From contig NZ_CP119791.1 in NCBI RefSeq assembly GCF_029338295.1, positions 1,364,001 to 1,428,000 on the forward strand: a stretch of DNA of 64,000 nucleotides. Reading direction: 5' to 3'. Made by a program: the position numbers and the translations under genes. Below the pieces are notes generated by a model. It saw only the letters and a program-made list of their open reading frames with translations. It searched no databases and was not told the origin of the DNA. How positions within the stretch are numbered: position 1 is the first letter of the stretch; each line of letters starts with the position of its first letter. This document shows positions 5,701-37,634 of the stretch, one piece after another. Source of the stretch: Haladaptatus sp. QDMS2. Lineage in GTDB: Archaea > Halobacteriota > Halobacteria > Halobacteriales > Halococcaceae.

Positions 5701-6352
5701 GGTCGAGGGTGAGTTGCTTCGCCACGACACCGACCACCCCCACCGCCTGTTCACGGTGACATCTGCCGGCCGAAAGGCAATCGGTGAGAGTTACCGGGAG
5801 GGCGTCGATTACGGCCACGGGAAAGGCGACTTAGAGGAATCCAGCCAGCACATCTTCGGCGTCGAAGTCCTCCGCCAGTATCTGGAGTCCGCGTATGTCG
5901 AGAATCCGGAATCTGCAGTCGTCGACGTCGTGCCCTATTACGAGATTCGCGAAGGCAGCGTTTCTGCCGCCGAGTTCATGGGCAGTTCCGTGAGTGCTCC
6001 CACCGAGGAGTTCCAACTGCATCGCCTCGACTGCGTTGGCCTCGACGCGAACGAGAACGTCGTCGTGACGGGTGAAGTCGAGCGTATCAACAACGACTAT
6101 CGACGCGCTATCCCAGAAGATTACGACAAGATGGCCGCCTGTGAGCCAGACGAGGCGATCTGGGTGGTGATGACCCAATCAGCTGGGCACAAAGTATTGG
6201 GGGTGTTGAACGACCCACCAGAGGGAACGCCACGCGTCGAGAAGACCTACGCGAAGACCACGCCACCACAGCATTTCAACATCGATTCGCCCGGACTGAC
6301 GGCGGTGTATCCAGCACCGTGGTTGCGTGACCGCATGCAGGAAGACGCGTAA
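2783..6352 (+). CDS. VirD4/HerA-type conjugation ATPase with zinc-finger, winged-helix and nuclease-like C-terminus
   Basis: A 1189-residue protein. The N-terminal ~380 residues are an uncharacterised alpha/beta region. A RecA/FtsK-HerA-type ATPase core follows, with Walker A GKTGSGKST at residues 409-417, the strand IDPKGDG near 440, and a Walker-B-like NLYIEEA at 675-681. The order matches TraG/VirD4/VirB4 DNA pumps and HerA. Next come Cys874-x-x-Cys877 and Cys894/Cys895 (zinc-ribbon-like), a winged-helix-like stretch (about 930-1000), and a C-terminal domain with Asp1083 and Glu1098-x-Glu1100, the spacing of a PD-(D/E)XK nuclease. No transmembrane segment is obvious. It probably moves or processes DNA for a conjugative or integrated element. 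The nuclease role is inferred and other transfer genes are absent here. Confidence 0.8.
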   Translation: MPAADASTDDRSIAPETTYIRIRPTDDSLHPKTVTTHLRRLHGLGPDPNTSLVSRLTRRTPEPPTIEFRLVADGTEDTTIDYYVGVTDPKVTDALERILRGLFPNSYELTRVDCVDPLTDAEAHPLAAVEFCGQPERLNDWQTQLTPFEDFQHESHSRLPLGALVETMAASAVPLVYQTLLRPKPDWSRRAEERSAYIEGGLDTYGGQLLNAIWGPPPKDELTITASDQARIQELAEKDGRRSFEVNARVVAISTDNPDTPDAPIRELATAFGDVSHTCYEVTSVVHTDGDATRVYEDIQTQRFYPADYGRLRNKIPWTTNTSRAIVADAREASNFCVLSGDSLTGAGKRAVAPTPGERTALPRPPADQLRAYTDGLLFGHPLTQDGATIDQGLSLPPALQPLHVAWFGKTGSGKSTALVNAILENQEATEGANILIDPKGDGMGEDYCRAHFARYGDLENVRYFDCAEVLPAFSFFDIRDELEVGVARTTAVEDTVDHYIEILTQIMGKRRFEQAVRSPDIIRYLVKALFDPVNGDDAFSHRDLHDAARRMHERQTAPAVSDDELERMLGGVVANRARSFDEIMQGVANRIEKIPVDKRLARMFNHVADGDEASDTPHFDLADWLDEDAVIIFDTGGLRSEAQRVLTLVILSNLWTALRRRTQQSDEEDHPLVNLYIEEAASVAVTDLLTEFLAKSRSFGCSVTLAMQFPGQLREASERAYNEVLNNVSTFVTGNVPVDRRLATRLATDEMDTTEVGNRLRALRRGQWFVKLPAAFDTDEPRPFLVRSAPLPPGDPEGPQPLTAKDATRFSDQFEETLDRTYFEAGLTLYQPSLADDFEEDTPSVVRVDTALAHTKRMPETVEYDAEIHALRCVSCDNRYDRSLDGMQRAIACCSSLDAVDRHDIPVCSVGLKLTDDEREASEWTDRQLLFLQVVYNAQQLRYDPLEYDLRYDSMLRLQEYTGIDSDTVQELVEGELLRHDTDHPHRLFTVTSAGRKAIGESYREGVDYGHGKGDLEESSQHIFGVEVLRQYLESAYVENPESAVVDVVPYYEIREGSVSAAEFMGSSVSAPTEEFQLHRLDCVGLDANENVVVTGEVERINNDYRRAIPEDYDKMAACEPDEAIWVVMTQSAGHKVLGVLNDPPEGTPRVEKTYAKTTPPQHFNIDSPGLTAVYPAPWLRDRMQEDA

Positions 6353-6677
6353 GCGTGCTCGGCTCACGGTTGGTGAACTAGCCGTGTCTAGGTAGTTGTG
6401 ATTCCGGTAGCAGTCGACACTGGATTGTGATTCGTGGGCAGATTCGCCAAGACCGTCTTCGGACTGCTGGGCCCGGCATCCGTGGCTTGATGGTTCATTT
6501 CTGACGAGGCGCTCCGGCGAAGGATAGTCGTCTGACCGTTATCTACTGGTGGTGTCGAGCGCGATTTGGATAGTGAAAGTATGAATTGGCTATCTTAGAG
6601 TGCTCTAACAGCTATTTTGGATAGTAATATTGGTTATTCGTTATCTATAAGCCGCTCCGAACGTGTGTTGGATACCA
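6353..6677. other. Intergenic region with the promoter of the Fic gene
   Basis: The first ~200 bases show no gene. Base use becomes strongly AT-rich from about 6570 to 6655. This part holds repeated ggatagt/ctatc words and an AT-rich ttatctataag about 30 bases before the Fic start, so it is a promoter and operator region. Confidence 0.5.
6565..6625 (+). promoter_or_regulatory. Repeated TTTGGATAGT operator-like words before the Fic gene
   Basis: TTTGGATAGT occurs at 6565-6574 and again at 6616-6625. Between them lies ttggctatc, the reverse complement of the gatag core, so direct and inverted copies alternate. They stand 50-110 bases before the start codon of the Fic protein, whose own C-terminal winged helix could bind here in autoregulation. 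That link is inference. Confidence 0.5.
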
Positions 6678-7838
6678 ATGAGGCCTGAAGACTTTGTTGA
6701 CGACGCTCCGGGAGAGGTTGAGATGGTCGACGGTATCTTCACGTTCAGCCCAGACCCGCTCCCACCAGACCTCGACGCCACACACGACCTAGTCAGCGAC
6801 AACGGGGAGGCAATGTATGCCGTGGGTCAACTCTCAGACCTGGATACCTGGCTGGATTCGCCGGAGGTTATCCTCAGTCCCCTCATCCACCGTGAGGCCG
6901 TCGATTCCTCGAACATCGAGACGACGACCCGACTCACGCTCTCGGACATCTATCGACGCGAAGCCGGTGAAGAGCCCGGACGAACCGCGACCGAGCGAGC
7001 CGACATCACGGAAGCACAGAACTACGTCGAAGCAATCACCACCGGCATTCAGGCGCTCAGAGAAGGCGCCGAGTTAGACCGGGACTTGCTGTGTCGCCTC
7101 CACGAAATATTGCTGCAGGGTGCACGTGGCGAGCAAAAGAACCCCGGAGAATTTCGCGAAGACCTCGTGGGAATCGACAAGCCGGGAACGCCACTCAGTG
7201 AGGCACGATTCGTTCCGGCTCCCCCAGCGAGTATCCCCTATGCACTTCGGAGCCTGCTCCAGTACATCCGCACAGGCCCACGGTACGCTCCACTGGTTGA
7301 CCTGGCGCTAATCCACTACCAATTCGAGACAATCCATCCGTTTCAGGACGGCAATGGGAGACTCGGTCGCCTCCTCGTGATGCTCGCCCTCTACAAGTGG
7401 GAGCTGTTACCCGGTCCGTATCTATATCCGTCGTCGTATTTCAACGCGAACCGTGATACCTATCTCGACAGGCTGCTGGCCGTAAGTCGTGACGGGGCGT
7501 GGATAGAATGGGTGTCATTTTTCGTTCAGGCAATCGCCGAACAGGGTCGTGAGGGATATACTGTCGCCCGAGAACTGCTCGCGTTGCGCGATCGGTATCG
7601 AGCCCAGTATCAGGGCCAGGGTGCCGTGATTCGCGAACTCATCGATTTTATCATCGAACACCCGTATCTCACAGAGCCACAGGCGGTCGACGCTCTCGGG
7701 CGGTCTCAACCTGCCGTGAACCAGGCGATTCGGCGCGTATGGGATGATGGGGTCCTGCGTGAGACGACCGGCCAGCAACGCAACCGACGGTATGAAGCGC
7801 CCACGATTCTCAAAATCGTCGAACCGTACAATCCGTAA
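6678..7838 (+). CDS. Fic-family protein (putative AMPylase) with C-terminal winged helix
   Basis: A 386-residue Fic protein. The canonical active-site motif HPFQDGNGRLGR lies at residues 220-231, with catalytic His220. The N-terminal helix bears SSNIE (77-81), the place of the (S/T)xxxE(G/N) self-inhibitory motif of class II Fic proteins. Glu81 is present, but the following residue is Thr instead of Gly/Asn. The C-terminal 65 residues form a winged-helix-like DNA-binding domain (EPQAVDALGRSQPAVNQAI). Such proteins transfer AMP to a target side chain and often autoregulate. ATG 6678 was preferred over the in-frame GTG at 6663 because the conserved N-terminus begins there. It stands alone in accessory DNA; the target is unknown. 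Confidence 0.85.
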   Translation: MRPEDFVDDAPGEVEMVDGIFTFSPDPLPPDLDATHDLVSDNGEAMYAVGQLSDLDTWLDSPEVILSPLIHREAVDSSNIETTTRLTLSDIYRREAGEEPGRTATERADITEAQNYVEAITTGIQALREGAELDRDLLCRLHEILLQGARGEQKNPGEFREDLVGIDKPGTPLSEARFVPAPPASIPYALRSLLQYIRTGPRYAPLVDLALIHYQFETIHPFQDGNGRLGRLLVMLALYKWELLPGPYLYPSSYFNANRDTYLDRLLAVSRDGAWIEWVSFFVQAIAEQGREGYTVARELLALRDRYRAQYQGQGAVIRELIDFIIEHPYLTEPQAVDALGRSQPAVNQAIRRVWDDGVLRETTGQQRNRRYEAPTILKIVEPYNP

Positions 7839-8675
7839 CTCGCGAGACAGTGGGGTCGTTCGTTGACACACCGTTCGTTGTGATGGTGATTGCCTGTTCA
7901 TACTCGGAATCGTGGTTTCCACGCGCCTGAACGGGCATCTAGGCAATTCTAGGGGGCTGATTTATCTTTCCTAGTCGGGGTCTGAGTCCGGAAGAGAGCG
8001 AAACAGCACAAAAAACGAGCACGAGGTCGATTCGAGCGCGAGAGAGCACAGGCCAAAATGGTCGTAAATGGGAGAACGATACGAAACCCGGATGCGTGAG
8101 GCGATTATATTCCGATTTCTCTGAGCGCGACGCACCAAAAGCAACATCCCAAAACCACAAGAGGGAATCCGATTATGAAGCGCAGAGAGACGGATTTGGA
8201 GGCATTCGCGAACGCCCGCAATTCCCCCTATCTAGCGAATTCAAACCCCACAAGCGCTCAAACCCCAAAATCATCCCCGCGAAAATCCCACACTAGTCTG
8301 GAACTCAATACCTCACAACAATCCTCTTCCGGGATTTCCAACCGGTTAGGATTCGGAATTGGGTGGTTCAGATTCCTCATAATCTGCTAACATGGGCTCT
8401 CCGCCCGTTATTCCGACAATGAGCGGTCAACTCCTGCATCAATCACGGATGGAATTTCTCTATAACAGACTGACAACGCCACTTCGAGAAGCATTTCAAC
8501 CATCGATTAGACCTTGAACGGTAATGAAATCGCAAGACTAGAACCGATTATGAAAATCGAGGGTGGTGATTGATTCTTTGAATATAGGGTCCAGGGATGA
8601 CGTTGAACCGTTCAGGCTTCTCTACATCATTAGCCCTGCGCCACTCTTTTTCAAACGCCACATCGAGTAGCTAGC
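7839..8675. other. 837-base purine-skewed spacer without a convincing gene
   Basis: The plus strand is unusually rich in A and in C-runs, especially at 7990-8290, and far poorer in GC than the following chromosome. Short repeats include TCAAACCCCA at 8241-8250 and 8258-8267, and CCGATTATGAA at 8169-8179 and 8544-8554. Only doubtful small frames exist, such as a 41-codon frame at 8392-8517. It probably marks the edge of the accessory island or decayed DNA. No tRNA or attachment site was recognised. Confidence 0.45.
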
Positions 8676-9602
8676 ATGCACGCCCACTCTGTCATCGAAG
8701 CCGTTGGAAACACGCCGCTCATCGAACTTCCCGGCATCCGTCCCGAAGGTGGCGCACGCATCTTCGTAAAGTGGGAGGGCGGGAATCCGACGGGGAGCAT
8801 GAAGGACCGATTCGCCCTCTCGATGATTCGGGGAGCGCGCCGCGACGGCTTGCTCGACCCCGGTCAGCGCGTCGTCGAGTACACCGGCGGCTCTACCGGC
8901 TCTAGTCTCGCGTTCGTCTGTGCGGTGATGGACCATCCGACGACGATGGTGACCGCAGATTGCTTCGCCCAGGAGAAGATTCGGACGATGCGAGCGTTCG
9001 GCGCGGAGGTCATCGTCCACGAAACACCTGACGGGAGTGTGTACCCGGGTATCATCGACGACATGATGGCGTACGTCGAGGAGGTGAAAGCCGAGACTGA
9101 GGCGTATCACACCCATCAGTTCGAGAACCCGTACCTGCTCGACGGCTACACCAAGATGGGCGAAGAGATTCTCGACGACTGCCCCGACGTGACCGACTTC
9201 GTGATGTCCTACGGGACCGGTGGCTGTCTGACCGGAAACGCGGAGGTGCTCAAGCCGGCAGGTGCGCGAATCACAGCCGTCGAACCCGCCGAGTCCCCGC
9301 TTCTGAGCGAAGGTCGTTCCGGGAACCACCACATCGAGGGCATCGCCGTGGGCGTGAACCCGCCCATCTTCGAGCGGGAACCGTACGACGACGTTCGCGC
9401 GCCGTCCGAATCGACGGCCAGAGAGATGATTCAGCGAGTCGCCAAAACGGACGGACTGTTCGGCGGATTATCGACGGGATTGAACTTGACCGCGGCGGTG
9501 GAAATCGCGAACGAGCGCGATCCAGACGACGCCGTCGTCACCGTCGCCTGTGATACCGGACTGAAATACCTGCAGGGTGACCTCTTCGCCAAAAAACAGT
9601 GA
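8676..9602 (+). CDS. PLP-dependent cysteine synthase family protein
   Basis: A 308-residue fold-type II PLP enzyme of the cysteine synthase/cystathionine beta-synthase family, acting in the cytoplasm on O-acetylserine or a related beta-substituted serine. The PLP lysine is Lys43 in GNPTGSMKDR. The substrate loop is EYTGGSTGSSLA (about 68-79), and the phosphate-binding glycine loop is GTGGCLTGN (about 185-193). Length is typical. Two features, GSMKDR and GGCLTG rather than GSVKDR and GGTITG, place it among divergent haloarchaeal members, so the substrate is not certain. It is monocistronic and marks the return to ordinary GC-rich chromosomal sequence after the island. Confidence 0.8.
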   Translation: MHAHSVIEAVGNTPLIELPGIRPEGGARIFVKWEGGNPTGSMKDRFALSMIRGARRDGLLDPGQRVVEYTGGSTGSSLAFVCAVMDHPTTMVTADCFAQEKIRTMRAFGAEVIVHETPDGSVYPGIIDDMMAYVEEVKAETEAYHTHQFENPYLLDGYTKMGEEILDDCPDVTDFVMSYGTGGCLTGNAEVLKPAGARITAVEPAESPLLSEGRSGNHHIEGIAVGVNPPIFEREPYDDVRAPSESTAREMIQRVAKTDGLFGGLSTGLNLTAAVEIANERDPDDAVVTVACDTGLKYLQGDLFAKKQ

Positions 9603-9614
9603 GTCGGGTGGGCT

Positions 9615-9866
9615 TCAGAGTGCCATCAGCGCTTGCCACGTGTCGTGGCCGATGACGCCGTCGACGCGGATGCCGGCATTCGATTGGAAGTCTTCGACCG
9701 CACCCTTCGTCTCGGGGCCGTAGTAGCCGTCGACGGAGATGGAGTAGCCTTGACCGTGTTTCAGGTGGTGCTGTGCGCCGTAGGTCGCCAAGTAGGGGTC
9801 GTTGTTGGAGTCCCAGACGGTGGCAAACAGCTTGACCCACGTGTTCGGGCCGACTCGGCTACGTAG
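9615..9866 (-). pseudogene. Truncated peptidoglycan-binding-like (PGB_1) domain gene
   Basis: The frame encodes the end of one PG-binding repeat (VGPNTWVKLF) and a whole second repeat with YYGPETKGAVEDFQ and the closing VIGHDTWQALMAL. No plausible start codon or upstream half exists. Further upstream the frame runs into the wrong phase of the DUF5518-type gene, whose stop lies at 9859-9861. The first repeat is cut in half at that join, so this looks like a 5'-deleted gene, or a C-terminal domain lost by frameshift from the neighbouring membrane protein. Such domains in haloarchaea probably bind surface glycans or cell-wall debris. Confidence 0.6.
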
Positions 9867-10260
9867 CGGTCCGAGACTCGGAGAAGTAGACGCCGATATA
9901 GCCACCGAGTGCACCGAGACCGACGGTGTAAAGACCAACGAGTAACAGCAGGACGAACCCCATGATGCCGAACCCGACGAGCGGGCCGACGATGCTGTTC
10001 CCCTGGGTGACGACAACCGGCGTCAGGAACGTGACCAGGAACATCACGACTGCGACGACCGGGATTGCTGCGAAGAGTCCCGCGAGTGCGCCGACCTTCA
10101 CGCCGTCATGCTTGTGGAGATAGCCAGCTGCTGCACCACCCAAAACGGGCGAGAGTGGGATGAACGAAAGGACGAACATCAACACCGCACCGATGAGCGC
10201 GTGGAGAAGGATGCCGTCGCGTTGCTGTGATGAGGACTGTACCACTGTTGTTTCTACCAT
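9859..10260 (-). CDS. DUF5518-type membrane protein
   Basis: A 133-residue integral membrane protein with four hydrophobic segments: about residues 18-45, 55-80, 88-105 and 110-128. The Gly/Ala-rich PLSPVLGGAAAGYLHK between the first two is typical of haloarchaeal DUF5518 proteins. Function is unknown. It ends with the short tail YFSESRTAT directly at the broken PG-binding domain, so its natural C-terminus may have been altered by the same event. It is separated by 31 bases from the DUF2270 gene upstream and is probably co-transcribed with it. Confidence 0.65.
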   Translation of the reverse strand: MVETTVVQSSSQQRDGILLHALIGAVLMFVLSFIPLSPVLGGAAAGYLHKHDGVKVGALAGLFAAIPVVAVVMFLVTFLTPVVVTQGNSIVGPLVGFGIMGFVLLLLVGLYTVGLGALGGYIGVYFSESRTAT

Positions 10261-10291
10261 AGGATAATATACGTCTGCTGAGGAGATACAC

Positions 10292-11008
10292 CTATCTCCG
10301 CCGGTTCGTTCGGTCTCGTCGGAGTGCTTCCGTCCGCATCTCGTCGTGCGTGTGCCACGTCCGCGGGCGAATCGCGATGAAGATGAGGCCGAGGAAGAAC
10401 AGGCCGACGAACATGGACACCATCGTGCCGGGAAGTTGGCCGATGGCGGCGCTCTCGGGCCACGGCTGGTCGCCGAACACGACGACGCGGGCGGTCCACG
10501 CGCCGAGGATGACGCCGAACAACGGCAGGTAGACGCGCCGGAGGCGGTGAGCGAGCGCCTCCTCCATGGTGATTTTGAGTGTCGGCGTTCGGTAGTCCTG
10601 GCTCAGGTCCTGTCGCCAGTTGGGATTCACGGGGTCGGTCGTCGGGTCGAGTCCCGGGGCGAAGACGTTTCGTTGGAGACAGCGAACCCGGGAGCGCCAG
10701 ATGTCGTAGCCGCGATAGCGTCTGGCCTCGATGGTGAGGAAGATACTGAGCGCTGCGATACCAGCGAGAATCACGTAGTGGGGGTTCTCCTGGCTCGAAA
10801 ACGACCACGTCAACACGGCGGCCATGACGATGACCGACCAGTTGGTCGTGCGGTCTAAGCGCTCGCGCCAGAGTTTCATCCGGTGGACTTCGCCACGGTA
10901 GAGATGTGCGAGTGCGGAACTCGGCCCCATCTGCTCGTCCAGGAGTCCCTTCCCGATGTCAGTAAACAGGGTGTCTTCCGACTCCGTCTGCGGCGATTCG
11001 TCCGCCAT
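10292..11008 (-). CDS. DUF2270 integral membrane protein
   Basis: A 238-residue protein matching the DUF2270 pattern: a charged N-terminal helix with ALAHLYRGEVHRMKLWRERLD, two close transmembrane segments (about 55-95), an amphipathic loop with EARRYRGYDIWRSRVR, and two more membrane segments (about 165-215). It ends in a basic cytoplasmic tail rich in Arg. Function is unknown. ATG 11008 precedes an acidic N-terminus usual for haloarchaeal proteins. Confidence 0.8.
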   Translation of the reverse strand: MADESPQTESEDTLFTDIGKGLLDEQMGPSSALAHLYRGEVHRMKLWRERLDRTTNWSVIVMAAVLTWSFSSQENPHYVILAGIAALSIFLTIEARRYRGYDIWRSRVRCLQRNVFAPGLDPTTDPVNPNWRQDLSQDYRTPTLKITMEEALAHRLRRVYLPLFGVILGAWTARVVVFGDQPWPESAAIGQLPGTMVSMFVGLFFLGLIFIAIRPRTWHTHDEMRTEALRRDRTNRRR

Positions 11009-11321
11009 AGTTGTTCATAGATTGGGCAATACTGTGGATATCTCTTTCGGATATTGATGGGTTTCGTGGGCACCGGTAGAGCATCTCACGCGCACAAATG
11101 TGACAGTTTTGCCGGTATCTACGTGCCACCATCCGGTGGCCGGGTGACCGCCGAAAACAGAGATAACTCGTTTCGAGCGGAGGACCACCAGTTTCCGCAC
11201 GTGTGGGCCGAGAAATTTGGCAGTTCAGTCGAATCGGTCGCGAGGGAGGCGTCGTAGGTACCTGCAGCGGACGCAGGATGCGTGAGTATTACCCGGATAG
11301 ACGAGGTAACACGGGCAACTC
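11009..11321. other. Divergent promoter region between DUF2270 and symporter genes
   Basis: No gene is supported. It contains a perfect hairpin, GCCACC-ATCC-GGTGGC (11125-11140), in mid-region, of unknown meaning. The promoters of both flanking genes must lie here because they are transcribed away from each other. Confidence 0.45.
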
Positions 11322-12629
11322 ATGGCTACCCCCTTCCGCTCGCTGTGGCATCGCTATCGAACCGTCCCGCTCATCTATCGCATCTTCGCGGCGTTCCTGC
11401 TTGGGTCGCTCGCCGGGCTTGTCTTCGGCGAGGAGATGGCCGTCGTCCGTCCGCTTGGCGACCTGTTCATCCGGCTACTCAACATGCTGGTGCTCCCCAT
11501 CATCGTGTTCACCCTGCTGACCGGGATTCGCCAGCTTTCGCCCGCTCGCCTCGGCAAACTCGGCGGCGCGACGGTGTTCCTCTACGCGGTGACGACGACC
11601 ATCGCGGGCATTATCGGCCTCGCCGTGGCGAACCTGCTCCAGCCGGGACTCGGCGCAGACCTCGCGGCCGGGCAGGCACCCGAATCCCAGTCGCCACCCG
11701 CGCTCATGGACGTCATCCTCAACATCGTTCCGGCGAACCCGGTCGCGGCCATGGCGGAGGGCAACCTGCTCGCGACGGTGTTCGTCGTCATCGTCTTCGG
11801 AACGGCGCTCACCTTCGTCCGCGCCCAGCAAGATGACCTCGCAGAGAAGGTAGATTCGGTGTTCGAGGCGTTCGAAGTCGCGACCGAAGCGATGTTCGTC
11901 GTGGTTCGCGGCGTGCTCGAATACGGCGTCATCGGCGTGTTCGCGCTGATGGCCGCCGGCATCGGGGCCGAAGGAATCGGTGTGTTCTCGGACCTCGGAA
12001 TGCTCGTCGTCGCCGTCGCCATCGCGGTGGCAATCCACATCGTCTTTACCTATCTCGTCGTGCTGATGGGGCTGGTCGCCCGCGTCTCGCCGCTCTCGTT
12101 CCTCAGCGGTGCGAAAGACGCCATGCTGACGGCGTTCGCCACCCGGTCATCGAGCGGGACGCTCCCCATCACGATGTCGAACGCAGAGGAGAACCTCAAA
12201 ATCGAGGAGTCGGTCTACTCGTTCGCGCTCCCTGTCGGCGCGACGGCCAACATGGACGGGGCGGCCATCCGACAGGCGATTACCGTCATGTTCGTCGCCA
12301 ACGTCGCCGGCCAGCCACTCGCCTTCGGCGAGCAGGCGATGGTGCTGCTCGTCGCCGTCCTCATCAGCATCGGGACAGCGGGCGTGCCGGGCGCGGGCAT
12401 CATCATGCTCACGGTCATCCTGAGCCAGGTCGGCCTCCCGCTCGAACTCGTCGGCCTCGTCGCGGGCGTCGACCCGATTCTTGGGCGCATCGCGACGATG
12501 AACAACGTCACTGGCGACCTCGCCGTCTCCACCGTCGTCGCGAAGTGGAACGACGCCATCGACTTCGACAGCGGCGTCTGGAGTCGGGCGTCTGCGGCAT
12601 CCGGGCAGTTCGTGCCTGGCGGCGACTGA
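11322..12629 (+). CDS. Dicarboxylate/amino acid:cation symporter (DAACS, SLC1 family)
   Basis: A 435-residue Na+- or H+-coupled importer for glutamate, aspartate or C4-dicarboxylates in the cell membrane. Family marks are a serine-rich re-entrant loop with SSSGTLP (about residue 273), the sodium- and substrate-binding GATANMDGAA (about 310; most relatives have NMDGTA), and the closing MNNVTGDLAVSTVVAKW. Eight hydrophobic helices are visible. The short charged N-terminus FRSLWHRYRTVPL is typical. It is monocistronic. The substrate within the family cannot be assigned from sequence. Confidence 0.85.
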   Translation: MATPFRSLWHRYRTVPLIYRIFAAFLLGSLAGLVFGEEMAVVRPLGDLFIRLLNMLVLPIIVFTLLTGIRQLSPARLGKLGGATVFLYAVTTTIAGIIGLAVANLLQPGLGADLAAGQAPESQSPPALMDVILNIVPANPVAAMAEGNLLATVFVVIVFGTALTFVRAQQDDLAEKVDSVFEAFEVATEAMFVVVRGVLEYGVIGVFALMAAGIGAEGIGVFSDLGMLVVAVAIAVAIHIVFTYLVVLMGLVARVSPLSFLSGAKDAMLTAFATRSSSGTLPITMSNAEENLKIEESVYSFALPVGATANMDGAAIRQAITVMFVANVAGQPLAFGEQAMVLLVAVLISIGTAGVPGAGIIMLTVILSQVGLPLELVGLVAGVDPILGRIATMNNVTGDLAVSTVVAKWNDAIDFDSGVWSRASAASGQFVPGGD

Positions 12630-29828: not shown

Positions 29829-32720
29829 TCAGTCCGCCGTTGGACTCCCTTCGAACAGCGCCGCCAGTAGCTTTCGCTGGGCGCGACGCAGGTGTTCGTG
29901 GAACGTTGCCGGTGACACGTCGAGCGACTCAGCCACGTCTGTCCCCGCGCTTTCTCGCGGCCAGTCGAAGAAACCGGCGTAGTATGCGGACTTGAGCGCC
30001 GTTCGCTGGCGGTCTGTAAGCTGTCCGATGAGACTTTCTGCGAGCTCTTCGGGCATGGCGACTTGCCGATTGACCGTGTTTCGCGAGACGAGGTCGATGT
30101 CCGGGTAGTGCTCGCGGACGGCGTCACTAACCTGCCGTACGTCGACGGTCTCGGGGAGTTCGGCCTCGATTTCGACTCGTCCCGGCGCGAACGTGACTGT
30201 GTGCAGTCGCCCGCCGTAGGTTGCGAGAATCGACCCGGCGGTCGGTTCTTCGATGAGAATTTCGAGTCGCGTCACCGTTTCGGAGGTGGTAATCGTCCGA
30301 ACCTCACGCACGCTCGGGTCGTCGGCGATTGCCGCTTCGTAGGCCGCAGCGTTCATTTTACGGACGGTATGGTACTGCAACACCGTCCCGTTGTTGAGCG
30401 GAACGGCCCGGTCGATGGTCACCTCGCCGAGGTCGTCGCCAAGTGCGGCGAGCGTCTCGGGGAGCGTGCCAGACCGGAAGGTGACTTCAGTGATGCGGTC
30501 TGCCATCAGTGCCGCCTTTCGCTCCATCGCGTTTATCGCGTGGCCGATGACGTCGCCGACCTGCGAGAGAATCTTGCGTTCGTTCTCGCCGAAGGCGTCG
30601 GGCCGGGCCGAGTGGAGCGTCAAGACGCCGTACTGGAGGTTCTGATAACCGATAGGAATCGCCGCCACAGAGTGATAGCCCCGCTCGCGAGCGTCGTCGT
30701 GCCAGTGTTCGTAGGCCTCGTCTTCGAGGATGTTCCGGCTGAACACGGCAGTTCGCTCCTGGAGGGCCCGACCGGTCGGGCCGAAATCCGTGGCTTGCGC
30801 TGTTGGGTCGCCCGACCACTCCTCCAGGTAGCCAGAGACGCCGGCTTCCGCGATTGGTTCGAGCGTCGAGTCGTCTGACTCCGTGGCCAGCCACGCGAAC
30901 TCGTAGGAATCTGCGGCGGCGAACCGCTCACAGACGAGGCGTTCTACGTCCTCTCGTGCGGTGGATTCGACGATGGCGTGAGTGATTTCCCGGACCACTT
31001 CGTTCAGTTCGTTCAGCGTCTCGACCTGCCGCTCCCAGGCCTTTCGCTCCGTGATGTCCCGGACGACGCCCGCGCGACCGTCCACTTCGTCGGAGTAGGG
31101 GTACGGTCCGAGGCGCGCCTCTGCGGGAATCGAGGTGCCGTCCTTTTTCGTCAAATCGAACTCAAGCGTCGCCATCTCTCGATAGCCGCTGCGTATCTCG
31201 GAGGCGAGTTCGTTCGCCTGCTGGCGAACCGTTTCGTTGTGGGCGAGGTTTGCGTGATTGCCGAGCAGTTCTTCGCGGTCGTACCCGGTCATCTCACAGA
31301 GCGCATCGTTCACCATCACGAAATTCTCGTTCGGGTCGAGGGCGTACACGCCGTCCCAGATGGTTTCGACGATGGTTTCGTAGCGCTCTAACTCGCGTTC
31401 GCGTTCCGTCCGCGAAATAGCCGCGGCGAGAATGTTCGCCACGTTGCGGACGAAAGAGACGTCCTGCTCGGTGAACTCCCTCGTGGTCTTCGTGTGAGCG
31501 CCGAAGACGCCCCACGGGTCGTCTGGTGGGCCGATGACAACGCTGACGCCGCTCACGACATCGTGGTCTACGAGGAGGTCTGGCCCGCTAAAGCGCGTCT
31601 CTGCGTCGAGGTTGGTGACGACGACCGGTTCCGCCGAGAGCAGCGTATAGCCGGCCTGTGAGGTCTGCTCGGTTCCGACGGTGGCGGTTCCGACGAGGCC
31701 GTCCCGCCAGCCGACACCGGCCCTGAGACGGAGGTGTGACTGCGTTTCGTCAAGGTCGAGTACTTTTGTCAATTCGATGTTGAGCGTCGATGAGACAAGG
31801 TCTGTGGCCGTCTCGAACAACCCGTCTAAGTCGCGGTCGGTGAGCGCCTGCTGACCGAAGTCTGCGAGTGCCCGCTGTTGGCGTACCTGCCGTTCGAGGC
31901 TGTCGACGCGTTCGGTCCGACTTTCGAGATTTCTGACGACGCCAACCGTTCCTTTGAATGAACCGTCGTCGCTGGGGAGGAGCGCAAAGCGAGTCTCTGC
32001 CGCGACCTCCTCGCCGTCTGCCCGCTCGAGCGTGATGTCGACTGCGCCACCCTCGCGCTCCCCGTCACGCATCGCTGCGCGCAGTCGATGACCCTGTTTG
32101 ATGACCTCGTCGTCGACGACGGTCGAAACGTGCTCGCCGATGAGCTCCTCACGGTCGTAGCCCACCATCGAAGCGTACCCGGCGTTGACCATCTCGAACT
32201 CGTCGTCTTCGTTGGTGATGTACACGCCATCGTGGATGGTCTCGACGATGGTCTTGTAGCGTTCCAGGTCTGCTGTCGGCTGTTGGGAATCCGATTCCGG
32301 TTCTGGAGGTTCGTCTTCGGGCGTCGGTTTGACGACCACGAGTATCGTCCCCGATGCCGCGTCGTCTCCAAGTCGCTGTAACCAGAGGTCGCAGTGGACA
32401 GGGTGCCCATCGGCCTGCAATATCGTGGTGGACAGGCGCGCCGGGTCTGCGTCGCTCCGGTCCAGTTGGCCCCGGACGCTGTCTATCACCGCCGTTTCGG
32501 TTGGGAGGAATGAAGTGAACAGTCGGCCGTGAAGGTGGTCTGCTGGCTGGCCGACCAACTCACAGAACCGGTCGTTTGTGGCAACGATGGTTCCGGAGTC
32601 ATCAAGTTTGATGGTGCCAACATCTGTCGCCTCGACAACTGCGCTGAAGGCGCGTCCCGCCTCTTTGGAGTTGTCGGTCAACGGGGATGTGGGAGGCTCC
32701 CCGCCGGAAGCACGGGTCAT
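29829..32720 (-). CDS. Multi-PAS/GAF Bat-type HTH_10 transcription regulator
   Basis: A 963-residue soluble regulator. Domains in order: PAS (about 25-140), PAS (about 150-275, with YASMVGYDREELIGEH), GAF (about 300-445), PAS (about 450-565, with ALCEMTGYDREELLGNH), GAF (about 590-750), the Bat extension (about 755-890) and C-terminal HTH_10 (LTDRQRTALKSAYYAGFFDW, then AESLDVSPATFHEHLRRAQ). No receiver or kinase is present. The two PAS copies share nearly the same helix, which points to internal duplication. It is close in layout to the regulator at 16603-19470. Signals and targets are unknown. Confidence 0.85.
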   Translation of the reverse strand: MTRASGGEPPTSPLTDNSKEAGRAFSAVVEATDVGTIKLDDSGTIVATNDRFCELVGQPADHLHGRLFTSFLPTETAVIDSVRGQLDRSDADPARLSTTILQADGHPVHCDLWLQRLGDDAASGTILVVVKPTPEDEPPEPESDSQQPTADLERYKTIVETIHDGVYITNEDDEFEMVNAGYASMVGYDREELIGEHVSTVVDDEVIKQGHRLRAAMRDGEREGGAVDITLERADGEEVAAETRFALLPSDDGSFKGTVGVVRNLESRTERVDSLERQVRQQRALADFGQQALTDRDLDGLFETATDLVSSTLNIELTKVLDLDETQSHLRLRAGVGWRDGLVGTATVGTEQTSQAGYTLLSAEPVVVTNLDAETRFSGPDLLVDHDVVSGVSVVIGPPDDPWGVFGAHTKTTREFTEQDVSFVRNVANILAAAISRTERERELERYETIVETIWDGVYALDPNENFVMVNDALCEMTGYDREELLGNHANLAHNETVRQQANELASEIRSGYREMATLEFDLTKKDGTSIPAEARLGPYPYSDEVDGRAGVVRDITERKAWERQVETLNELNEVVREITHAIVESTAREDVERLVCERFAAADSYEFAWLATESDDSTLEPIAEAGVSGYLEEWSGDPTAQATDFGPTGRALQERTAVFSRNILEDEAYEHWHDDARERGYHSVAAIPIGYQNLQYGVLTLHSARPDAFGENERKILSQVGDVIGHAINAMERKAALMADRITEVTFRSGTLPETLAALGDDLGEVTIDRAVPLNNGTVLQYHTVRKMNAAAYEAAIADDPSVREVRTITTSETVTRLEILIEEPTAGSILATYGGRLHTVTFAPGRVEIEAELPETVDVRQVSDAVREHYPDIDLVSRNTVNRQVAMPEELAESLIGQLTDRQRTALKSAYYAGFFDWPRESAGTDVAESLDVSPATFHEHLRRAQRKLLAALFEGSPTAD

Positions 32721-33031
32721 CTCATCGCCGCCTTACGAGGCGTCCCAAATAAGTCCAATGGCTGAAATCAAACATATCAATAATATTATAATATCGGTAA
32801 TTGTCCAGAAAATAGGGCGATTTTCAAAATATTCAAACTAAAAAACCAATATTTCTTTCCCAAATTGTTGGATGTGCATCGGAATCTGTTTGCGACCTGT
32901 GGGCAAAATATGTCATGTCCTACCACGAATGTGACGTCCCGACAGCCCCCGAATTCCAAACGACGTTTCTAGTACCTGTAGCGGGTGAAATAACACAATT
33001 TATTAACTCTGAGGCCTGTTCTAATAACAGA
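32721..33031. other. AT-rich divergent promoter region before the metal ABC operon
   Basis: No gene is supported. The region is strikingly AT-rich from 32760 to 32870 and again at 32980-33030, and contains promoters for the Bat regulator (minus) and the metal importer (plus). The operator-like element at 33000-33027 is annotated separately. Confidence 0.5.
33000..33027 (+). promoter_or_regulatory. NikR-like inverted repeat in the metal-importer promoter
   Basis: TTATTA (33000-33005) and TAATAA (33022-33027) are exact inverted arms with a 16-base spacer, the same 6-16-6 layout as the known NikR operator of E. coli. The left arm overlaps the TATA box (atttatta), about 30 bases before the ATG. 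The word TATTAACTC (33001-33009) recurs directly before the NikR-type gene at 36163-36171. Binding is inferred. Confidence 0.6.
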
Positions 33032-34006
33032 ATGCAACGATTTTCACGGCGTGCGCTCCTCCAGTGTGGAGGGGGTGCGCTCGCAGTATCGCTCGCAGGC
33101 TGCCTCGGCGATTCCTCTGGTGAGGCGGGACAATCGACGGCGACGGCGTCGTTTTTCGTGCTCTCGGATTTCGCCGAGCAGATCGTCGGTGACGGGCTTA
33201 CTATCGAAAATCTGGTTCCCGTCGGCCAGCACGGCCACGGCTGGGAACCCGGGCCAAACGTTCAGCGGTCGGTCCTTCAGTCACTCGCCTTCCTCTACGT
33301 GGGCCACGGATTCCAGCCGTGGGCCGACAACATCGTGTCGAACCTCGCCGCGGACGCCCCCGAAGTCGTCGTCGTCGAAGCATGGGAGGACATAGACCTG
33401 CTTGCTGCAACCGGTCACGACCAGGGGGAAGAAGACGGAGGTCACAAAGAAGACGAAGACCACGACGAGACCGGTGTCGATCCCCACTTCTGGCTCAACC
33501 CCCAGCGTGCCGCCCAGGCAGTCGAGACCATCGCCGCCGGCCTCGGTGCCGCGGATGCAGACCGCGCCCAGCAGTATCGCGACGGAGCGGCAGCCTACAC
33601 GGAGGTACTCTCCGACCTCGACACCGAGTTCGAAAATGCACTCTCCACGCGCACGCGAGAGGCGGTACTGGTCGCCGGTCACGACGCCTTCCAGTACCTC
33701 GCCACTCGATACGGCTTCGAGGTGCACGCCCTCTCGTCGCTCTCGCCGGACGACGAGCCGACGCCACAGGACGTGCGACACGCCCAGGAAATCATCGAAG
33801 AACACGACATCGAGTACGTCCTCGCGCCGGTGTTCGAATCTGACCGCGCGGCGCGACAACTCGTCGAAGAGACGGATGCCACTGGCCTCCTTCCCATCAC
33901 GTCGATTCCCTCGATTTCCGAGGAGTGGCGCGATAAGGGATGGAGCTACGAAGACATCATGCGCGAGGTCAATCTCGCGTCGCTCACGGAGGCGCTCGGA
34001 GCGTGA
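33032..34006 (+). CDS. znuA: Metal ABC transporter substrate-binding lipoprotein (ZnuA-like, cluster A-I)
   Basis: A 324-residue metal-binding lipoprotein. The Tat signal SRRALLQCGGGALAVSLAGC precedes the mature domain. Predicted metal ligands are the His of VGQHGHGWEPGP, His of DPHFWLNP, His of VAGHDAFQYLATRYG and the acidic residue of VFESD. A long His/Asp/Glu loop (about 130-150) lies before DPHFW, as in zinc-type proteins. ATG 33032 gives the signal at once; upstream codons are non-homologous. The metal is uncertain: Zn or Mn is usual for the family, but the adjacent regulator has a nickel site. Confidence 0.85.
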   Translation: MQRFSRRALLQCGGGALAVSLAGCLGDSSGEAGQSTATASFFVLSDFAEQIVGDGLTIENLVPVGQHGHGWEPGPNVQRSVLQSLAFLYVGHGFQPWADNIVSNLAADAPEVVVVEAWEDIDLLAATGHDQGEEDGGHKEDEDHDETGVDPHFWLNPQRAAQAVETIAAGLGAADADRAQQYRDGAAAYTEVLSDLDTEFENALSTRTREAVLVAGHDAFQYLATRYGFEVHALSSLSPDDEPTPQDVRHAQEIIEEHDIEYVLAPVFESDRAARQLVEETDATGLLPITSIPSISEEWRDKGWSYEDIMREVNLASLTEALGA

Positions 34007-34776
34007 CGGCAGTCATCGACGTCGACCACGTCACCTTCGGCTACGGTCCCACCCCGGTCGTCGAAGACGTGTCGCTCACCGTCGAAGAAGGCGAGTTCCT
34101 CGGCCTCGTCGGACCAAACGGATCGGGAAAGAGTACGCTCTTGCAGCTCATGCTCGGGTTGCTCGAACCCGACGAGGGGCGTGTCGCGCTGTTTGGCGAA
34201 CCGGCGAGCGAGTTCAGCCACGGCGAACGACTCGGATACGTCCCCCAGCAGGTAACCAACTCGACGGTCGGGATGCCCGTCACCGTCCACGAAGTAGTGA
34301 CGATGGGGCGCTATCCGCGGGTCCGATTCGGCCGACTGTCTAGCGAAGACCGCGACATCGTCGCCGACGCCATGGAGACAGTGGGCATCACGCACCTCGC
34401 CAAACGGCGCATCGCCAACCTCTCCGGGGGCCAGCGCCAGCGGGTGTTCATCGCCCGAGCGCTCGCGGCTGAGGCCGACCTGCTCGCGCTCGACGAACCG
34501 GCCGTTGGCGTCGATGCCGAGTCTCGCGAACGGTTCTACGACTTGCTCAACCAGCTCAACGGCGAGGGGATGACCATCATCCTCATCGAACACGACATCG
34601 GCGTCGTCACCGAACACGCGACGAAGATTGCCTGTATCAATCGTCGCCTGTTCTTCCACGGTGCGTCTGCCGGATTCACTGAGAGCGACGCGCTCGCCGA
34701 AGCCTACGGCGCGAACCAGCGCGTGTTGCACCACGACCACTCCCACGGCCACGATTCGGACGGTGACCGTCCGTGA
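34003..34776 (+). CDS. znuC: Metal ABC transporter ATP-binding protein (ZnuC-like)
   Basis: A 257-residue ABC ATPase. Walker A is GPNGSGKST (about 38-46), the signature LSGGQRQRV (about 141), and Walker B LLALDEP, followed by the switch His in LIEHDIGVV. The GTG start at 34003 overlaps the stop of the binding-protein gene (GTGA), and its own end overlaps the permease start in the same manner, so translation is coupled through all three genes. The His-rich C-terminus (HHDHSHGHD) may bind metal. Confidence 0.88.
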   Translation: MTAVIDVDHVTFGYGPTPVVEDVSLTVEEGEFLGLVGPNGSGKSTLLQLMLGLLEPDEGRVALFGEPASEFSHGERLGYVPQQVTNSTVGMPVTVHEVVTMGRYPRVRFGRLSSEDRDIVADAMETVGITHLAKRRIANLSGGQRQRVFIARALAAEADLLALDEPAVGVDAESRERFYDLLNQLNGEGMTIILIEHDIGVVTEHATKIACINRRLFFHGASAGFTESDALAEAYGANQRVLHHDHSHGHDSDGDRP

Positions 34777-35732
34777 GCGTCCGGCCGCTGGTCGTCCTCG
34801 CCCTCGTGACCGAGTGGTTGAACGCACTCCTCGACGGCGTCGGTGCCGGGATGTGTGCGCTGACCGCCCCGCTCGGCATCGAAATGCTGTGTTTTCCCTT
34901 CATGCAGCGGGCGTTCGTCGCAGGCGTCGCAATCGGCGTCGTCGGGCCGCTCATCGGGTCGTTCCTCGTCCACCGACAACTGTCACTCATCGGCGAAACG
35001 CTCGCCCACACCGCCTTCTCGGGCGTGGCTATCGGCCTGTTTTTGAGTTCTACGTTCGCGTTCGTCGTCTCGCCGTATCTCACCGCACTCGTCGTCGCCG
35101 TCGTCGCTGCGCTCCTCATCCAGGCTATTTCCGAGTACACCAATGCCTACGGCGACGTGTCGATGGCAATCGTTCTCGCCGGCGGGTTCGCCCTCGGGAC
35201 GGTCATCATCAGCGCGTCGGGCGGCATCGCCGTCTCCGTAAACCAGTACCTGTTCGGTAGTCTCTCGACGATTACCCGCGAAAACACCGGGATACTCGTC
35301 CTGCTCAGCCTGTTCGTCACGAGCGTCGTCGCGCTCACCTACCGCCAACTCCTGTTCATCACCTTCGACGAGACGGCCGCGCGGGTGGCGAGTCTGAACG
35401 TCGAGGGCTACAATCGCCTCCTCGTCGTGCTCACCGCGCTGGTCGTCGTCGCGGCGATGCAACTCATGGGCGTCATCCTCGTCGCGGCCCTGCTCGTCGT
35501 GCCGGTGGCGGCGGCCGCACAGGTTGCGGGAAGTTTCAAACGCTCGCTCTGGTACTCGATTGCCTTCGCAGAACTCTCGGTCGTCGTCGGCCTCACCATC
35601 TCGTACGCTTACGGTCTCGCGACGGGTGGAACCATCGTACTCGTCGCAATCGCTGTCTACGCGGGTGCGGTGGTCGTTGGAAAAGTTCGTACCAGAACAG
35701 TGGTAGCCGAGCGAACGGTAGATGCGGAGTGA
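34773..35732 (+). CDS. znuB: Metal ABC transporter permease (ZnuB-like, ABC-3 family)
   Basis: A 319-residue membrane protein with about eight or nine helices and ABC-3 family blocks: RAFVAGVAIGVVGPLIGSFLV, LSLIGETLAHTAFSGVAIG, and in the second half FDETAARVASLNV with VAAMQLMGVILVAALLVVPVA. It forms the pore for the metal delivered by the lipoprotein. The gene ends exactly where the convergent NikR-type gene ends (stops at 35730-35732 and 35733-35735), leaving no spacer. Confidence 0.88.
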   Translation: MSVRPLVVLALVTEWLNALLDGVGAGMCALTAPLGIEMLCFPFMQRAFVAGVAIGVVGPLIGSFLVHRQLSLIGETLAHTAFSGVAIGLFLSSTFAFVVSPYLTALVVAVVAALLIQAISEYTNAYGDVSMAIVLAGGFALGTVIISASGGIAVSVNQYLFGSLSTITRENTGILVLLSLFVTSVVALTYRQLLFITFDETAARVASLNVEGYNRLLVVLTALVVVAAMQLMGVILVAALLVVPVAAAAQVAGSFKRSLWYSIAFAELSVVVGLTISYAYGLATGGTIVLVAIAVYAGAVVVGKVRTRTVVAERTVDAE

Positions 35733-36161
35733 CTATTCGACGCTTGCGAACGTGCCGAACTCGTCTACCGGGATGACCGAGTAATCGACGGTCAGGATGT
35801 CCTTCGTGGCGCGAATCTTCCCGACGAAGGTCGAGATGTTTTCGAGCGACCCTTCGAGGATGAACAGTTCCATGCAGTAGTGGTCGCCGACGTGGCTGTG
35901 GAAGTTAGAAGCGACGAGGTCTTCGTGTTCGTGGCGCAGGTGCATCATCTTCTCTTCGACGCTCGTCGTCTGGAACTTGAACAGGACGGTGACGACGCCC
36001 ATTAGGTCGCGGTCCTCGAGGCGTTTGTCCTCGAACTCGCCGAGGAGGTTGCGACTCGCTTCGCGAATCACTTCACTGCGACCCGTGTAGCCGTGTTCGG
36101 AAGAGAAGGCGTCGATTCGTTCGAGCAGTTCGTCTGGCATGGAGACGCTGACGACGGTCAT
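35733..36161 (-). CDS. nikR: NikR-type ribbon-helix-helix metal-responsive repressor
   Basis: A 142-residue regulator. The ribbon-helix-helix domain (1-45) starts [15 protein letters not shown]; the ACT-like metal domain follows. His77, His88, His90 and Cys96 ([17 protein letters not shown]) have exactly the spacing of the E. coli NikR nickel ligands His76, His87, His89 and Cys95. It should therefore bind nickel and repress in its presence. The gene is leaderless, with TATTAACTC two bases before its ATG. The same word precedes the adjacent metal importer, which suggests autoregulation and control of that operon. Confidence 0.88.
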
Positions 36162-36162
36162 G

Positions 36163-36190
36163 TATTAACTCAGGGGCACTTCGATATTAA
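36163..36190 (-). promoter_or_regulatory. Candidate operator before nikR sharing TATTAACTC with the importer promoter
   Basis: Read on the plus strand, TATTAACTC at 36163-36171 is identical to 33001-33009. The following bases keep the GGC and CTTC/GTTC positions and end in an AT-rich arm (atattaa). Here the right arm is a poor mirror of the left, so symmetry is weaker than at the importer. The element covers the TATA box of nikR (tttaata on the minus strand). Confidence 0.5.
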
Positions 36191-36261: not shown

Positions 36262-36645
36262 ATGGCACTCTCGGTCAGCACGAACGAGCGCGTGGAGCTG
36301 GTGGATATCTCAGACCGCGTCGCCGGTGAACTTCCGTCCGACGCGACTGGTATCTGTACGGTTTTCTGCACCCACACGTCGGCGGGCCTCCTGATACAGG
36401 AGAACGAATCGCGGCTGAAACGCGACTTGCTCGGGCTGTTAGAACGCGTGGTTCCGGAAGCCGGCGGGTACGAACACGACGAGATAGACGACAACGCAGA
36501 CGCCCACCTCCGCGCCACGCTGCTCGACAGTAGCCTCTCGATTCCCGTCAAGAATGGCGCGCTCCAGCTGGGGACGTGGCAGACGATTTTTCTCGTGGAA
36601 TGTGACGAGCCTCGCACGCGCAAGATTATTGTTACTGTCACTTAG
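36262..36645 (+). CDS. YjbQ family (UPF0047) protein
   Basis: A 127-residue single-domain protein of the YjbQ family, associated with thiamine phosphate synthase-like activity in some reports. Key block: CTVFCTHTSAGLLIQENE (about 32-49), with the conserved His and Glu. ADAHLRATLLDSSLSIPV and LGTWQTIFLVECD with GxWQ are also typical. ATG 36262 starts at the family N-terminus. It is divergent from nikR, sharing about 100 bases. The physiological role is unclear. Confidence 0.83.
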   Translation: MALSVSTNERVELVDISDRVAGELPSDATGICTVFCTHTSAGLLIQENESRLKRDLLGLLERVVPEAGGYEHDEIDDNADAHLRATLLDSSLSIPVKNGALQLGTWQTIFLVECDEPRTRKIIVTVT

Positions 36646-37634
36646 AGCGCGAGGACGAGGTCTTCACCGTCGCGCTCAAACTCGGTGTCGAACGGGGCAG
36701 AGCGGTCCCGCATGGTCTCACGGCACCATGTGGCGGCCTCCGGGCGCGCGATGTGGACCGAAAAGTCGTAGATTTCGGTAGGGCTGCAGCGCAGTTGTGA
36801 GAGCCCCTCCGGGGTGAGCGTCACCTCGAAGATGAACCCGTGGTCGTTGTGGAGGTGAGAGTCAACCGCGTAGTCGTCCACGAAGTCGCCCGTGTCGTAC
36901 AGAATGAGCCCGTCCTCGTACACCTCGACGCCGTGAAAGAGGTGTGCGGAATGCCCATAAACGATGTCCACGCCCTCGTCGACGAGCCAGTGGGCGAAGG
37001 CGACGAAGTGGTCAGGCGGACTCGTCGTCATGTTCGGCCCCCAGTGGAGGGCGGCGACGAGCAACTGTGGATTCCACTGGCGGGCGCGAGCGAGAACCTC
37101 ACGAACCCTGATTCGCGTCGGGCCGTGGCGAGGATCTACCTCGATGAGGGCCGTCCCGTACTTGTCGTGGTCTGCGGCGTACTCCGGCGTGTTGTCGGTG
37201 AACGACACCATCGCCACGCGAACCCCGTTCAGCGCGAACACGGCGGGGTCGAGCGCGGTATCGAGGTTCCGGCCCGCACCAGCGTGGGCGATTCGCGCCG
37301 CGTCGAGGTGGTCTAGCGTGTCGCCGAGGGCGGTCGGGCCGAAGTCCATGACGTGGTTATTTGCGAGACTCACCGCAGACACTCCGGCCGCGGTGAGCGC
37401 GGGAATCGCCCACATCGGGTCCGCCCGGAAGTGAAACGGTCGGTAGGTTTTCGTCCAGGGCATTCCGTTCGTCGAGAGACAACACTCCAGATTACAGACG
37501 AGGCCGTCAAGGTCCGTGAGGCGGGAACGGCAGTCTCCCCAGACCGTCTCCGGGGGGAGCCAGCGCTGGCGCTCGTCTACGAGTCGCCCGAGCATCACGT
37601 CACCTAAAAGCCCCAGCCGACGAGTCGGTGCCAT
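36642..37634 (-). CDS. CapA family metallophosphatase-like protein
   Basis: A 330-residue protein of the CapA (poly-gamma-glutamate synthesis) family, with a calcineurin-like phosphoesterase fold. Motifs are GLLGDVMLGR near the start, CNLECCLS, SLANNHVMDFG (about 90-100), and LHWGPN and GHSAHLFHGVEVY with metal-binding His. No signal or membrane helix is present, so it appears cytosolic. Its stop overlaps that of YjbQ by four bases (convergent). The true substrate is unknown; capsule synthesis should not be assumed. Confidence 0.83.
   Translation of the reverse strand: MAPTRRLGLLGDVMLGRLVDERQRWLPPETVWGDCRSRLTDLDGLVCNLECCLSTNGMPWTKTYRPFHFRADPMWAIPALTAAGVSAVSLANNHVMDFGPTALGDTLDHLDAARIAHAGAGRNLDTALDPAVFALNGVRVAMVSFTDNTPEYAADHDKYGTALIEVDPRHGPTRIRVREVLARARQWNPQLLVAALHWGPNMTTSPPDHFVAFAHWLVDEGVDIVYGHSAHLFHGVEVYEDGLILYDTGDFVDDYAVDSHLHNDHGFIFEVTLTPEGLSQLRCSPTEIYDFSVHIARPEAATWCRETMRDRSAPFDTEFERDGEDLVLAL

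Follow-up and report, generated by a model that had tools for sequence, protein, structure and literature searches.

Organization of the locus

We analysed a metal-uptake locus in a 64,000-nucleotide stretch of Haladaptatus sp. QDMS2 (contig NZ_CP119791.1, positions 1,364,001 to 1,428,000; hereafter the window), in which a znuA-C-B operon (33032-35732, plus strand) encoding a zinc-type ABC importer converges with a gene for a NikR-family regulator (Table 1). This convergent arrangement is kept in both congeners. The importer has the ZnuA, ABC and ABC-3 domains of cluster A-I transporters within one operon, and the nearest solved relatives of its ZnuA are the zinc-binding proteins AdcA and YcdH. 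Three His and one Glu are candidate ligands in ZnuA, which has only a short His stretch and no long His-rich loop. Every NCBIfam equivalog score of the importer fell below its cut-off, so that its subtype cannot be assigned.

Table 1. Features of the importer and nikR locus, in window coordinates
Feature	Position	Strand	Remarks
Operator TTATTA-N16-TAATAA, importer promoter	33000..33027	+	Left half at TATA-box position, right half at expected transcription start
znuA-type substrate-binding lipoprotein, 324 aa, cluster A-I	33032..34006	+	Candidate ligands His-His-His-Glu
znuC-type ABC ATPase, 257 aa	34003..34776	+	Domain match
znuB-type ABC permease, 319 aa	34773..35732	+	Domain match
NikR-family regulator, 142 aa, haloarchaea-wide subfamily	35733..36161	-	H77, H88, H90, C96
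nikR promoter elements: ATG-adjoining word (TTAATA on minus strand) and TATA-position word, 22 bp apart	36163..36190	-	

A distinct haloarchaeal NikR subfamily

The product of nikR matched Pfam NikR_C (PF08753) and RHH_1 (PF01402), as well as NF002815, above the respective cut-offs. Its metal ligands have the spacing of Escherichia coli NikR, and the site could be aligned with those of the E. coli, P. horikoshii and H. pylori proteins, confirming a preliminary description of this DNA that had placed a NikR with a complete metal site beside a zinc-type importer. The NikR family was present in all 41 good relatives, and the subfamily of the window protein, whose named relatives are haloarchaeal, is nearly universal in this group. 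In a tree built from few alignment columns, with long branches and a root for drawing only, a 100/99 branch separated the window type from the NikRs of E. coli, H. pylori and P. horikoshii and from canonical haloarchaeal NikRs. In six relatives we found a second NikR, which resembles the P. horikoshii protein more closely; it lies next to a canonical NikM in three cases and next to urease in one, and two genomes (G013 and G015) hold both the canonical NikR/NikM system and the window-type regulon. The host genome has a single NikR-family gene, and a canonical NikR was not found there.

NikR-family paralogues of the MRTS.. and MPIVSSS.. groups, which lack the metal-ligand motif, occurred within the same clusters at L060, L067, L075, L103, L108 and other loci, and some promoters of these clusters contained long inverted repeats.

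An operator with NikR geometry in the importer promoter

The importer promoter contains TTATTA-ACTCTGAGGCCTGTTC-TAATAA, an exact 6-16-6 inverted repeat, as the preliminary description had reported. It has the features of a NikR-type operator, with two half-sites at a 22-bp centre spacing in the target promoter, and its geometry is that of the E. coli NikR operator GTATGA-N16-TCATAC (PMC7055735). The same half-site words, TTATTA and TAATAA, are contained in the H. pylori ureA-perf oligonucleotide, 12 bp apart there (PMC9860126). The exact pattern had one match only in the 3.88-Mb host genome, the importer promoter itself. Both congeners kept the half-sites and the 16-bp spacing, and the spacer sequence had diverged. 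Part of the left half-site, TTTATTAA, is ordinary promoter sequence, as the word falls where the TATA box of a leaderless promoter is located.

A word shared between the importer and nikR promoters had also been described. TATTAACTC indeed occurs just twice on both strands of the window, at 33001 and 36163, the second time one base, not two as first stated, from the nikR start. A related word is thus present in the nikR promoter, but the nine-base identity is not conserved: the congener importers carry TATTAATTT and TATTAATCT in its place and keep the half-site only, and we rejected TATTAACTC as the signal. The nikR promoter reads TATTAA-N16-TATTAA, which has the same 22-bp spacing as the importer but is composed of direct words rather than an inverted repeat. 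This direct layout, with a TATA-position word and a start-codon word 22 bp apart, was found in 85 of 107 nikR promoters, and the start-codon word was essentially missing from 15 other gene families. As this layout differs from the inverted repeat, NikR autoregulation is no more than plausible.

The operator is associated with zinc-type transporter genes

We scored the operator as TTATTA-N16-TAAYAA with up to two mismatches, in promoters gathered by homology and not selected for the motif; some loci in the sample came in through motif searches. The promoters are related, so that their counts are not independent, although many families of the order are represented. The znuA genes were divided on whether they had a DtxR-type box, without regard to the operator, which preceded 24 of the 27 genes lacking the box and 0 of 15 with it. 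The operator was also found before 21/30 ZIP-type transporter genes, 12/12 genes for NMT1-type ABC binding proteins, 15/15 cbiM genes of the MAHIH class, 23/26 nikR-like paralogues and 11/31 COG0523 GTPase genes, against shuffled-sequence means of 0-1.1. In a comparison of cbiM classes, the canonical cbiM/nikM class carried it in none of eight promoters and the second class in 10 of 11.

Enrichment peaked at spacing 16 across families. Among the matches listed for exact TTATTA/TAATAA pairs in 60 relatives, from which the small f2 genomes (without NikR) were left out, spacing 16 was the most frequent (10; next 6), and the peak recurred in 1.5 Mb surrounding 80 named nikR genes, where most of the spacing-16 sites preceded a start codon by 1-6 bases. 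When 20 further genomes were scanned, znuA or ZIP promoters accounted for 17 of the 44 near-exact sites, compared to ~0.003 expected by position; a control with the reversed pattern returned 35 sites in total, indicating that operator-like sites away from znuA and ZIP genes are mostly background. The words are therefore conserved at orthologous loci, favouring a real operator, and comparison of sequences establishes its association with zinc-type transporters.

Gene content points to zinc

Several findings bear on the metal. First, the host genome has a one-mismatch operator immediately preceding a ZIP-type gene, and both congeners retain this site. Pfam ZIP was matched by all 14 homologues tested, although the first scored under its curated cut-off. 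Searching PDB sequences with the ZIP-type protein gave nothing useful, but the nine best PDB fold matches to its AlphaFold model (mean pLDDT 73) were all the zinc transporter BbZIP. Second, long His-rich loops were frequent in ZnuA proteins of the operator class and occurred in no ZnuA of the DtxR-box class. Third, the best match of the COG0523 neighbours was ZigA, below its cut-off. Lastly, ZIP and/or an operator-class ZnuA was present in 38 of 41 good genomes, with partial mutual replacement of the two (Fisher p = 0.012, from an operator-class ZnuA list assembled by hand).

Nickel genes showed a different pattern. NiFe-hydrogenase and CbiM were not found in the host genome, in searches that did not include NikABCDE, NiCoT or other nickel enzymes, and urease was judged absent, with a single partial match of 23 bits covering profile positions 63-109. 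Among these three, no nickel transporter or enzyme was linked to or co-occurred with the window gene. Judged from its sequence, the window protein belongs to the NikR family by domains and ligands, yet by clade and gene company it is probably not a nickel-responsive orthologue. Several haloarchaea with nickel genes have the second, canonical NikR, and their NikM promoters are without the operator. The proposal in the preliminary description that the importer may carry nickel or cobalt fits poorly with these results and with the operator at ZIP-type transporters and often His-rich ZnuAs; a NikR-family protein serving zinc is a simpler reading than a zinc-family importer serving nickel.

The host has a second znu operon (L209, ~6000-8800, C1:2.10 Mb) with a TTAGAC/GTCTAA-like box and without the N16 operator, which is probably manganese-type and DtxR-controlled. 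DtxR/SirR control of the window importer was rejected, as DtxR-type boxes mark the other znuA class. Near the second operon, the genus has a conserved TTATTA/TAATAA pair at spacing 28, with a core in common (G000:C1:2108390, G001:C1:2227070, G002:C1:2024440). ZnuC of H. salinarum increases under nickel stress (PMC6978704), an observation that we did not use because the class of its operon was not established.

A proposed zinc-uptake switch

We consider it probable that the window protein is a metal-sensing repressor of a zinc-uptake regulon, with a role like that of Zur. With somewhat less confidence, we favour a broader view in which the haloarchaeal NikR subfamily was re-tooled as a zinc repressor, controlling ZnuABC, ZIP, ECF and NMT1-type transporters and zinc-chaperone GTPases through TTATTA-N16-TAAYAA, and a separate, canonical NikR remains responsible for nickel in the species that use it. 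The NikR-type sensor is then probably the missing haloarchaeal zinc-uptake switch, rather than proof of nickel import.

We infer that NikR binds the operator and represses, with zinc rather than nickel or cobalt as signal and cargo. A metal-loaded NikR tetramer, with zinc the most likely metal, would dock its two ribbon-helix-helix heads on the half-sites TTATTA and TAATAA, which are separated by two helical turns. Bound there, it would cover the TATA box and the transcription start of the leaderless importer promoter, presumably blocking TBP and polymerase and turning znuACB off. When zinc is scarce, NikR would be released, and znuACB and the ZIP-type transporter elsewhere in the genome would be expressed. 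In Haloferax volcanii, the transcript of a znuA operon starts four bases before the ATG (PMC8155600). In other haloarchaea, genes for NMT1-type ABC importers, one cbiM ECF class, some zinc-chaperone-type GTPases of COG0523 and nikR-like paralogues are also preceded by this operator. The exact mode of action may vary, as certain families have the operator ~60 bases ahead of the start codon.

Some observations weigh against this proposal. First, the four nickel ligands are kept in 101 of 101 orthologues, as in a nickel sensor. Second, cbiM importers, usually for cobalt or nickel, share the operator regulon. Third, neither ZIP nor cluster A-I transporters are strictly specific for zinc. Fourth, only 6 of 109 nikR promoters have the inverted N16 repeat, and the connection of NikR to the operator is consequently indirect, drawn from the matching geometry, the H. 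pylori half-site words, the presence of NikR as the sole family member in the host, and linkage, as 18 of 80 named loci have nikR no more than 9 kb from a target operon; another regulator could bind the operator. Lastly, binding or metal data for the window-type subfamily were not found in the literature searched.

Alternative explanations

An ordinary nickel-responsive NikR, beside a znu-type importer that really imports nickel or cobalt, would account for the full His3Cys site and for cbiM-type ECF importers in the regulon of other genomes. The Znu family may itself include nickel carriers: in the relative G038, urease and a canonical NikR adjoin a znu-like importer (L202, ~8300-12100) that could be a real nickel importer of this family. 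The second His ligand of the L202 binding protein appears to be missing in the alignment. We nevertheless regard a nickel role at the window locus as unlikely, given the host's lack of urease, NiFe-hydrogenase and CbiM, the position of the window protein outside the clade of characterised NikRs, the ZIP-type identity of the co-regulated host gene, and, in other haloarchaea, a separate canonical NikR/NikM system whose NikM promoters are without the operator.

It is also improbable, in our judgement, that the operator is real and zinc-related but bound by an unrelated regulator, with NikR nearby for another reason. The scarcity of the inverted repeat in nikR promoters would fit such a regulator, as would the absence of nikR beside these genes in 62 of the 80 named loci, and DtxR-family regulators are known for haloarchaeal manganese uptake (PMC3600143). 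DtxR-type boxes, however, mark a different znuA class without the N16 site, the 22-bp spacing fits NikR, and the regulated paralogues of the same clusters belong to the NikR family.

A broad repressor for zinc, nickel and cobalt, with equally broad importers, would suit the mixed regulon of Znu, ZIP, CbiM and NMT1-type transporters, and E. coli NikR binds zinc, cobalt and copper with other geometries (PMC7055735), but this seems very unlikely given that G013, G015 and other genomes keep canonical NikR and NikM beside the regulon, implying a division of labour. Finally, a chance origin of the repeat and shared word in AT-rich promoter sequence, though compatible with a half-site at the TATA-box position and a nine-base word not kept in congeners, is already refuted by the unique genomic match, the half-sites conserved at fixed spacing between diverged spacers, the spacing-specific enrichment across many families and the genome scans.

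Significance

If the proposed zinc role is correct, a nickel-sensor scaffold serves zinc, haloarchaeal genes annotated nikR are probably misnamed, and the window protein works like Zur without being Zur. The candidate protein, the precise operator sequence and the list of targets named here are all testable in a laboratory haloarchaeon. No report of this operator regulon was found in the literature searched, most subscription papers lying outside it.

Additional observations

A large PAS/GAF/HTH_10 (bat-type) regulator gene (29829-32720) is divergent from the importer, and a YjbQ/UPF0047 gene and a PGA_cap-domain gene lie beside nikR (36262-37634). N16-like sites without a clear downstream gene start were seen at L213, L216 and L217. 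A thioredoxin-reductase-like gene has an N16 operator before its start (L187, L195) and adjoins nikR in one genome. The cbiMNQO-type ECF genes at L203, L211 and L060 are accompanied by a small protein, and a DUF1405 membrane protein occurs at some loci. Between canonical nikR and nikM (L270, L271, L277) we observed the words GTAATACT / AGTATTA, a possible operator of canonical haloarchaeal NikR.

Comparison with known systems

The window importer resembles the cluster A-I importers ZnuABC, AdcABC and AztABC in its domains, gene set and ligand residues, and differs from them in its equivalog scores below cut-off and its short His stretch. In Halobacterium, SirR, found with zurA/zurM/ycdH, is described as Mn(II)-dependent (PMC3600143). 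Like SirR, the window protein is predicted to be a haloarchaeal repressor of a znu-like importer; SirR belongs to the DtxR family. ZntR of Methanosarcina is a DtxR-like predicted zinc regulator (PMC2770081); it shares with the window protein the predicted archaeal control of znuABC and a COG0523 gene, but is of the DtxR family and from a different archaeal group.

With the NikRs of E. coli, P. horikoshii and H. pylori, the window protein has in common the RHH and NikR_C domains, the His3Cys site and half-sites two turns apart. Unlike these characterised NikRs, it falls in a separate clade, its operator differs in sequence from that of E. coli, its predicted targets are zinc-type transporters, and no nickel genes were found in its host among those searched for. 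The archaeal genomes sequenced at the time of an earlier survey contained no recognisable Fur or Zur (PMC2770081). The window protein, composed of RHH plus NikR_C, does not have the winged-helix fold of the Fur family to which Zur belongs and is unrelated to it, but its predicted role, like that of Zur, is to repress zinc-uptake genes, znuABC among them, in a regulon that includes COG0523 GTPases.

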